DNA of 42,025 nt, taken from NCBI RefSeq assembly GCF_023218075.1, contig NZ_JALPTB010000057.1, positions 1 to 42,025 on the forward strand. Direction: 5' to 3'. Under the pieces are notes generated by a model. That model was given only the letters and a program-made list of their open reading frames with translations. It made no database searches and was not told the origin of the DNA. The position numbers and the translations under genes were made by a program. The stretch's first letter is position 1. Every line of letters starts with the position of its first letter. Positions 24,587 to 25,981 of the stretch are shown here, one piece after another. Source of the stretch: Rhodococcus sp. HM1 (GTDB taxonomy: Bacteria; Actinomycetota; Actinomycetes; Mycobacteriales; Mycobacteriaceae).

Positions 24587-25051
24587 TCAGTGAGCGGTGA
24601 CGCGCGCCACGTCCTCCGCGATGTGCTGCGCGCGGGTGACAGCGTCGACCAGACCGGCCGTCTTGATCGCGGCGTACCCACCGACGAGGCCGGTCGCGCG
24701 GCGCAATCCGATCTCCTGCAGGGACGCGACCGCGCGGTGTGCGGCGGGGCCGTCCGCGGAAACGACGACCCATTCGACGTCGCGGTCGACGGCGAGCGCC
24801 AGGCTCTCGGCTCCGGCGGCCGGGTCGAGACGCCGGGTCAGAAGCGCGGCGTCGATCGCGAGTGCACCCGGAAGCGTGCCCTGAACGGTGCGCTCGGCCG
24901 AGGTGCGGATGTCGACGACGACGGCGCCGCGGGCAACAGCGGCGGCGAGCTCCGTGGGGTAGGTCCGCTCGGTGGTCAGCGGCAGAAAGCCGACGGAATC
25001 CGAAGCGGGGGAAGCGATGAAAGGTGCAGAAACAGCAAGCGCAGCGCGCAT
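24587..25051 (-). CDS. rhodanese-like domain protein lacking the catalytic cysteine
   Basis: A 154-residue protein with one rhodanese fold: TELAAAVARGAVVVDIRTSAERTVQGTLPGALAIDAALL (CH2A-type region) and EIGLRRATGLVGGYAAIKTAGL at the end. At the active-site loop, where sulfurtransferases have Cys followed by Arg, it reads VEWVVVSADGPAAHRAVASL: the cysteine position is serine or alanine, so it is probably not a standard sulfurtransferase. The single other candidate thiol is absent; I see no cysteine in the protein at all. ATG 25051 has GGGAG seven bases upstream, and part of this site is locked in the hairpin described separately. The cysteine leader upstream suggests a role in sulfur metabolism. 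Confidence 0.85.
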   Translation of the reverse strand: MRAALAVSAPFIASPASDSVGFLPLTTERTYPTELAAAVARGAVVVDIRTSAERTVQGTLPGALAIDAALLTRRLDPAAGAESLALAVDRDVEWVVVSADGPAAHRAVASLQEIGLRRATGLVGGYAAIKTAGLVDAVTRAQHIAEDVARVTAH

Positions 25052-25060
25052 GAGAAAACT

Positions 25061-25114
25061 CCCAGGAATGTGTTATCGGTCGAGGCAGACGTCAGCCTCG
25101 ACAACACTCCTGGG
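25061..25114 (-). promoter_or_regulatory. attenuator hairpin covering the Cys-Cys codons and the rhodanese-like gene's ribosome-binding site
   Basis: Three stacked stems: 7 bp at the base (CCCAGGA/TCCTGGG in plus-strand terms), 5 bp (GTGTT/AACAC) and 7 bp at the top (TCGAGGC/GCCTCGA) with an eight-base loop and small internal loops. On the RNA the 5' arm contains the TGT TGT CGA codons of the leader ORF. The foot of the 3' arm contains the GGG of the GGGAG ribosome-binding site of the rhodanese-like gene, seven bases before its ATG. Ribosomes held on the Cys codons would open the hairpin. No T-tract terminator follows, so translational control is more likely than termination. Confidence 0.65.
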
Positions 25115-25142
25115 CGTTCATGCAGCGGATCACGGCGACCAT
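25092..25142 (-). CDS. cysteine-rich leader peptide (putative cysteine attenuator)
   Basis: A 16-codon ORF from ATG 25142 reads MVAVIRCMNAQECCRG and stops with TGA; from the internal GTG 25133 it would be 13 codons. Three of its last ten codons are cysteine, in a genome where cysteine is rare, and the Cys-Cys pair lies in the hairpin arm. The ATG is two bases after the coaX stop. AAGAAT seven bases before GTG 25133 could serve as a -10 for a leaderless transcript of the 13-codon form. Leaderless polycysteine ORFs acting as cysteine-responsive attenuators are known in mycobacteria; assignment to that class is by architecture. Confidence 0.65.
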   Translation of the reverse strand: MVAVIRCMNAQECCRG

Positions 25143-25144
25143 TC

Positions 25145-25981
25145 TTACACAGATTCGCGAGTGGGGGAACCCGTAGAACCGTGACGTGCGGAACGCCGGG
25201 CCTGGTTCCGCTCGAACACCAGGCGCAATCCCTCGAGCGTCAGATCCGGCTCGTGATGCTCGATCGTCGTCGCCTCCGGCATGATCAGCGGCGCGCAGTC
25301 ACCCGTGCCGATCACCGCGACGTCGTCACGGTCGAATCCGGGAACCTCGGCGCGCACGCGGCGCACGAGACCGTCGACCATGCCCGCGAATCCGAAAACC
25401 GCGCCGGACTGCATGCATTCGACGGTGTTCTTCCCGACCACCCCGCGCGGTCGCGCGAGTTCGACCTTCCGCAGCGCCGCACCCTGCGACGCGAGCGCGT
25501 CCATCGAGATCTCGACACCGGGCGCGATTGCACCGCCGAGGAACTCACCCTTGCCGGAAACCACGTCGACGCACGTGGACGTACCGAAATCGACGACGAT
25601 GCACGGACCACCGTAGAAGTGATGCGCGGCAAGGCTGTTGACGATCCGGTCGGCGCCGACCTCCTTGGGGTTGTCGACGAGCAGCGGCACACCGGTGCGC
25701 ACACCGGGTTCGACGACCACGTGCGGCACCTCCGCCCAGTACCGGCCGAGCATGCCGCGCAGTTCGCGGAGTACCGACGGCACGGTCGACAGCGCGGACA
25801 CCGCGGTGATCCGGTCGACGTCCTCACCCAGCAACCCGCGGAACAGCAACGCGAGCTCGTCCCCCGTCATCCGGGGGTCGGTGCGAACTCGCCAGTCCTG
25901 CAGCAGTTTTGCATGCGAACCGCTGCCGGTGAACAGACCCAGAACAATATTGGTGTTCCGGACGTCGACGGCGAGCAGCAC
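25145..25981 (-). CDS. coaX: type III pantothenate kinase
   Basis: A 278-residue ASKHA-fold kinase for the first step of coenzyme A synthesis from pantothenate. Phosphate-1 motif: [15 protein letters not shown] at the start; [13 protein letters not shown] and [34 protein letters not shown] contain phosphate-2 and the metal-binding acidic residue; a late [11 protein letters not shown] (adenosine region) follows. GTG 25981 starts two bases after the panD stop, so the pair is co-translated. It completes a panC-panD-coaX set for the pantothenate-to-CoA route. The long frame running through panD is a shadow. Confidence 0.95.

Follow-up and report, generated by a model that had tools for sequence, protein, structure and literature searches.

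A putative cysteine-responsive translational leader before thiol dioxygenase-family and rhodanese genes in Rhodococcus, Nocardia and their relatives

Cysteine leaders of actinobacteria and the locus of Rhodococcus sp. HM1

Attenuation in response to cysteine is reported to have been shown in Mycobacterium smegmatis by Canestrari et al. (2020), according to PMC9094748, PMC13236596 and PMC9031893, and Cys leaders have been proposed to precede cysA2, Rv0485/Msmeg_0932 and nirA in mycobacteria (PMC4633059). Candidate Cys leader peptides are also described for the cys operons of Mycobacterium and P. acnes and for cbs of B. longum (Seliverstov et al., 2005; PMC1262725). According to the portions of this literature that were available to us, the polycysteine leaderless attenuators of mycobacteria consist of a short ORF behind a promoter-like box, with adjacent Cys codons near its end, and this ORF folds with the initiation region of the next gene. 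All these properties, the fold by prediction, are shared by a leader in the window, the 42,025-nucleotide stretch of contig NZ_JALPTB010000057.1 of Rhodococcus sp. HM1 that was analysed here, which differs from the mycobacterial leaders as described there in having two Cys codons only, a nearly fixed core, genes of the cysteine-dioxygenase family (CDO) and rhodanese as targets, and pairing of the leader with the next start codon. With the candidates of Seliverstov et al. it has in common Cys codon runs near the stop of a short actinobacterial ORF; for those candidates, however, the accessible text reports no conserved hairpin and suggests Rho (PMC1262725), whereas here the stem is conserved in leaders of the Rhodococcus and Nocardia type. 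Since the workings would be of a known kind while the core, the length, the target and the pairing with the start codon differ, the leader is best considered a distinct variant; as far as can be judged from the sequence, its anatomy fits a translational attenuator of the mycobacterial kind that is ON in cysteine starvation.

If this assignment is correct, a thiol dioxygenase and a rhodanese are coupled to the cysteine supply by a single short leader in Rhodococcus, Nocardia and their kin, and the reach of such leaders extends beyond the cysteine genes named for them in the accessible parts of the literature. A literature search over titles and abstracts, with most subscription papers outside its reach, returned no link of such a leader to CDO or rhodanese.

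Two NCBIfam families, NF042933 (leader_Ms5788A) and NF042934 (cis_reg_atten), likewise represent Cys-rich leader peptides of actinobacteria. Their models, of 27 and 19 residues, are both longer than the window leader, which has 13; at E<=10 they match 7 and 15 places of the same genome, none of them at the window leader, and below their cut-offs they match unrelated control genomes as well. Most of the matches in the Rhodococcus genome contain a VDLxR-like or IDLCR stretch that the window leader lacks. Other Cys leader-like ORFs of this genome (L271, L272, L273, L275 and L276) end, for example, in CRLGGCCCSC, VSAHMCCR, AGAACCHIHR, TRSCLCAA and GASCRCR. The search of the window against Rfam gave no match at the gathering threshold, and three sub-threshold matches (E 0.16 to 0.41) were taken as chance.

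On the minus strand, the window contains panC, panD, coaX, the leader, the rhodanese-like gene and lysS, in this order. The type III pantothenate kinase gene coaX (25145..25978, minus strand) ends with TAA at 25147-25145, and two bases past it begins, as the initial annotation had described, an ORF of 16 codons (ATG at 25142-25140) that ends in TGT TGT CGA GGC TGA, with the TGA at 25094-25092 and an internal GTG at 25133-25131. The leader is preferably read from this GTG, as 13 codons and a stop (VIRCMNAQECCRG; 25092..25133, minus strand), because the -10-like box AAGAAT (25141..25146, minus strand), which overlaps the stop codon of coaX, lies 7 nt before the GTG, the commonest spacing among relatives; 115 of the 148 placed leaders have 13 codons, which makes the internal GTG of the window the likely start. 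The leader would accordingly be a 13-codon ORF with a predicted -10-like box of its own. The Shine-Dalgarno-like GGGAG of the rhodanese-like gene, recognized from sequence and fold, lies at 25059..25063 on the same strand.

Conservation of the leader core

The core of the leader, CAGGAGTGTTGTCGNGGCTGA, reads CAG GAG TGT TGT CGA GGC TGA in the window (25092..25112, minus strand) and includes the adjacent Cys codons TGT TGT (25101..25106, minus strand). A pattern that admits synonymous codons (CAR GAR TGY TGY CGN GGN TGA) found this core in 133 of 301 family genomes, at one place in each and in 16 of 31 genera; the reversed-pattern control found none. All 133 matches read CAG GAG TGT TGT CGN GGC TGA, with TGT TGT in 133 of 133; among the 1169 Cys codons of matched neighbouring-gene stretches, counted with repeats, 242 are TGT. 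The Arg codon varies at the third base only (CGA 131, CGG 11, CGC 1; n=143), and the prevailing CGA accounts for 5.4% of Arg codons in the matched neighbouring-gene stretches. The QECCRG end with its stop and the hairpin recur within the genus of the window. At least 119 core stretches were found in a named scan, the pattern of which fixed the Cys codons and which was left out of the codon counts; among the matches listed are Rhodococcus, Rhodococcoides, Nocardia, Prescottella, Williamsia, Aldersonia and Speluncibacter.

A loose leader pattern had a match in 28 of 61 genomes. Two candidates, L032 and L056, were rejected, with none of coaX, lysS, panD, rhodanese or CDO found in either. The search at the level of the class matched 13 of 394 genomes at 14 places (reversed control, 2), and eight class-search loci, seven outside the family and one in the genus here denoted g50, were set aside as having no coaX, CDO, rhodanese or lysS neighbour. 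The core also occurs, together with a Gordonia/Williamsia-like rhodanese, in a record labelled Kitasatospora arboriphila (L139), the label or assembly of which may be wrong.

The 187 core loci include repeats of a genome; removal of neighbourless, incomplete or identical loci leaves 149 regions, of which 147 rows remain once L057, for which the -10 rule gives no start, and L193 are taken out, and there are 143 distinct RNAs, in which the next start was chosen by rule. An in-frame ATG, GTG or TTG is located 5-8 nt past a -10 box, loosely defined as NAnnnT, in 148 of the 149 unique regions, compared with 3 and 4 for the other frames, and the distance between start and box is 7 nt in 123 of the 148.

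These counts speak for a coding leader with a start signal of its own, and they bear on the possibility that the stretch is conserved as RNA or DNA and requires no translation, for instance as a stem bound by a protein or as an operator. The core is indeed fixed base by base, including the third positions of the Cys, Gln, Glu and Gly codons, and the stretch forms an imperfect inverted repeat. However, the reading frame and the layout of the start signals are retained in 148 of 149 regions, the Arg codon varies at its third base, and the two arms are unequally conserved, one being almost invariant and the other variable, which is not the picture of an equal-armed operator, so that such an element appears very unlikely.

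Predicted folding over the next start codon and modelled ribosome states

The RNA of 25145-25030 folds with -51.4 kcal/mol (z -4.39), a value that none of 200 dinucleotide-shuffled sequences reached. For the RNA beginning at the GTG, the minimum-energy structure has an inner hairpin formed by GTCGAGGC (25095..25102) and GCCTCGAC (25079..25086), with the leader stop codon in the loop, and an outer stem by CCCAGGAGTGT (25104..25114), which spans Ala, Gln, Glu and Cys codons, and ACATTCCTGGG (25061..25071), all on the minus strand. In the outer stem, the 3' arm occupies the GGG of GGGAG, as the initial annotation had said; the ORF and the hairpin that it proposed are present at their positions and well beyond chance. 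A further pairing, absent from that annotation, joins GCATGA in Cys-Met codons of the leader (25118..25123, minus strand) to TCATGC, the rhodanese start codon with its neighbours (25048..25053, minus strand).

In the window, the duplex of leader arm and tail is better than with any of 200 shuffled tails (z -6.3). Among the relatives, which in these counts are not independent of each other, 118 of 147 rows have an arm-tail duplex with p<=0.05 in comparison with shuffled tails (median z -2.8); in two of the 147 the next start was put 11 nt past the leader stop and may be wrong. The same level is reached by the inner hairpin against tail shuffles in 129 of 143 and by the leader segment with the start region in 111 of 141 rows. 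In 107 of 143 minimum-energy folds, the next start codon is paired with leader bases at each of its three positions, typically with the bases 11 to 13 before the GAG codon. Both the Cys codons and the fold are kept across genomes of the Rhodococcus and Nocardia types; the comparison that the initial annotation had named as a possible refutation, a lack of conservation, therefore did not refute it.

For 48 representatives, the register of the start-codon pairing was compared with slid registers. In the proposed register, 66% of the pairs are standard, against 24% and 34% in the two registers shifted by one base; other registers have at most 50%, except for a short one of only 5 pairs, with 62%. 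Its seven central pairs are present in 34 to 46 of the 48 representatives. Among paired GTG starts of the next gene, the leader carries C five times and T five times. The -9/-2 pair is formed by A and T in 23 cases and by G and C in 8. Compensatory changes, which the initial annotation had asked for in the stem, do occur in single cells. They do not, however, exceed those of the slid registers, with 38 double-change cells in the proposed register and 7 to 50 in the slid ones, and covariation is therefore not shown; in the tree covariation test, two supported independent pairs per base pair put significance out of reach. In the genus g44 (L071-L089), the tail exceeds that of the window by about 26 nt and contains a further CGAGGC/CCTCGA pair, which might allow two alternative hairpins (judged by eye).

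Ribosome states were modelled with a footprint of -13..+15 relative to the first P-site base. The median probability that the next start codon is unpaired (n=147) is 0.01 in the free RNA, 0.65 with a ribosome at the leader start, 0.62 and 0.60 with the first and the second Cys codon (Cys1 and Cys2) in the A site, 0.21 with the Arg codon and 0.10 with the stop codon. The Shine-Dalgarno bases alone do not open in the model, given that their medians (n=147) are lower in the ribosome-bound states (0.17 at the start, 0.06 at Cys1, 0.06 at Cys2, 0.18 at Arg, 0.22 at the stop) than in the free RNA (0.30); with Cys1 in the A site, they are less open than in the free RNA in 107 of 147 rows and more open in 4. 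The energy required to open positions -12..+6 (median, n=143) is 14.4 for the free RNA, 10.8 at the start, 8.5 at Cys1, 8.7 at Cys2, 9.2 at Arg, 9.6 at Gly and 10.0 at the stop; for the window, the respective values are 19.8, 15.3, 8.2, 8.4, 9.8, 9.7 and 13.2. Opening is easier by more than 1 kcal/mol at Cys1 than at the stop in 82 of 143 RNAs and harder in 7. In these models, a ribosome waiting at the Cys codons would thus free the next start codon and one at the stop mostly would not; a ribosome at the leader start also frees it (0.65).

We consider that the leader is probably a cysteine-responsive translational attenuator that is ON in cysteine starvation. Transcription would begin at the leader GTG, with no 5' untranslated region ahead of the translated ORF. 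At low levels of charged Cys-tRNA, the ribosome would wait with a Cys codon in the A site and cover the leader bases able to pair with the next start codon, leaving the gene translatable. When cysteine is plentiful, it would reach the stop codon and leave, and the leader would re-pair and shut the gene. Leader codons that cover the start codon of the next gene would constitute a compact switch. An attenuator is also supported by further Cys leaders, different in sequence, at other places of this genome and by the cysteine-responsive attenuation reported for M. smegmatis.

Genes behind the leader and the direction of the response

Among the 187 core loci, 133 are located between coaX and a CDO-family gene and 37 between coaX and a rhodanese gene; nine others have partial neighbours and eight none. 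The commonest gene behind the leader is hence a CDO-family gene, followed by rhodanese, and the former had gone unmentioned in the initial annotation. In the clade of the window (genus g1), there is no CDO at the leader place and the rhodanese gene comes directly behind the leader; a coaX tree of 100 rows requires at least 5 changes between presence and absence of CDO next to the leader, and the clade of the window seems to have lost CDO from this place. The original target of the leader would probably have been a CDO-family thiol dioxygenase followed by a rhodanese; in the window's clade, the rhodanese-like gene alone occupies this place.

That the location directly behind pantothenate and CoA genes is the notable feature of the locus, as had been put forward, is not supported by the comparison: the leader has a promoter-like box of its own, and ECCR-type leaders of the genus g50 precede CDO in stretches where coaX does not lie beside it. 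The position is a matter of shared gene order, not of mechanism. What stands of the original Cys-leader reading is the Cys codons in the arm that masks the next initiation region, which are conserved.

The rhodanese-like gene (24587..25051, minus strand) encodes a protein of 154 aa that matches PF00581 with 28.7 bits (cut-off 22.2); in the alignment, its catalytic Cys is replaced, and the protein contains no Cys anywhere. Counting repeats of a genome, the catalytic Cys is kept in 157 of 157 loci where rhodanese lies beside CDO, and in the 39 leader loci without CDO the position is occupied by Ser in 33, Gly in 4 and Cys in 2. A fixed coupling of CDO absence and Cys loss was rejected, as L035 and L070, from one genome, keep the Cys. 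The catalytic Cys is also kept in L026 and L028, which are beside coaX without CDO and without the leader. It could be argued that in the window's clade, with CDO absent and the catalytic Cys lost, the device is a mere remnant and the leader has lost its importance, as might be suggested by the rhodanese of g1 lying directly behind the leader and by the Cys replacement in 37 of the 39 loci without CDO. Yet the core is exact in 18 of 18 sampled g1 genomes, and the opening energy and duplex z of the window (19.8 and -6.3) exceed the medians (14.4 and -2.8), which renders a mere leftover highly improbable.

The CDO-family protein of one leader locus (L037) matches Pfam CDO_I with 36.8 bits (cut-off 23), and its nearest solved chains are 8qfr and 8qfl, which are named cysteine dioxygenase. 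Ergothioneine dioxygenase is a possible identity of these chains; the literature search, by title or start of the abstract, returned no paper on such an enzyme. The Tyr-Thr-Arg site triplet of cysteine dioxygenase is represented in the leader-linked proteins by ATR (33), STR (21), AAR (18) and a few others, with 53 proteins unmatched by the search expression, and by FTR in 11 of 20 g50 proteins. As the Arg is kept and the Tyr mostly is not, a substrate other than cysteine, namely another carboxylate thiol, is possible.

The sign of the proposed response is odd for a cysteine-consuming enzyme, a paradox not raised in the initial annotation: a shortage of cysteine would not be expected to induce an enzyme that breaks it down. 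This leaves two readings, sulfur salvage from another thiol by the dioxygenase or sensing of excess by the leader. In the former case, induction in cysteine shortage would be explained as sulfur salvage, with the dioxygenase acting on a thiol other than cysteine. In the latter case, an ECCR-x nascent peptide would arrest the ribosome at high levels of cysteine or another thiol, and the halted ribosome would keep the RNA open or Rho off the tail, such that the cysteine-degrading enzyme is made. A precedent of this general type is TnaC, the leader of tryptophanase, which stalls at its stop codon when tryptophan is high. Both are short leaders that precede a catabolic gene of their amino acid, whereas the leader described here has two Cys codons within the masking stem, and we know of no TnaC-like stall for an ECCR leader.

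CDO was found in 47 of the 50 g50 genomes searched, and in 20 of the 20 loci examined it is preceded by a short Cys ORF behind a -10-like box, which contains ECCR in 17, CCR in 19 and TGT TGT in 18; no coaX or lysS was found in the stretches around these 20 loci. For the 20 g50 leaders together with L025 and L029, the median opening energies are 6.9 in the free RNA, 6.7 at Cys1, 6.8 at Cys2 and 6.3 at the stop, and the inner hairpin has p<=0.05 in only 2 of 22 leaders of the g50 type. Thus, g50 retains ECCR but not the fold, and no pairing was found despite TGT TGT in 18 of 20. L025, from the genus g2 (beside coaX, ending in QECCRSI), follows the state-dependent pattern, with 14.8 in the free RNA, 7.5 at Cys1, 8.3 at Cys2 and 13.2 at the stop. 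By eye, the tails behind the g50 leaders are C-rich.

Sensing of excess suits a cysteine dioxygenase in its sign, and the retention of ECCR (17 of 20) and CCR (19 of 20) in g50, where no state-dependent fold was found, is compatible with it, as is an Arg codon that varies only at the third base, which is expected if the residue matters. On the other hand, the start codon is mostly closed in the model with the stop in the A site (0.10), the residues past CCR differ between clades (G, A, F, P, R, Y, SI, SR or an immediate stop), the C-rich tails of g50 have been judged by eye only, and the two adjacent Cys codons, together with the Cys runs in other leaders of the genome, suit sensing of starvation. 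We regard excess sensing as unlikely; it is retained on account of the odd sign for a cysteine consumer and of the CDO site, in which Arg is kept and Tyr mostly is not. Decidedly doubtful is its extended form, in which ECCR would act as a thiol-sensing nascent peptide throughout and excess thiol would open the start-codon lock in leaders of the Rhodococcus and Nocardia type and provide protection from Rho in g50.

Cys-rich ORFs occur also next to other CDO-family genes. The genome of Rhodococcus sp. HM1 has one other CDO-family gene, the product of which is 32% identical to the L037 protein, and this gene is preceded by a polycysteine ORF that ends in GGSCGCCCCCCHD (L221). Many actinomycete CDO-family genes of families f33 and f62 (L224-L251) have a short Cys-rich upstream ORF; a rule of thumb picked 16 such ORFs from 30 loci tried, L221 included, with 65 TGT and 20 TGC codons. 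One genome (G027) contains two leaders, one ending in QECCRG before a rhodanese gene beside coaX and one ending in NRMCCR before a CDO-rhodanese pair elsewhere (L029, L058).
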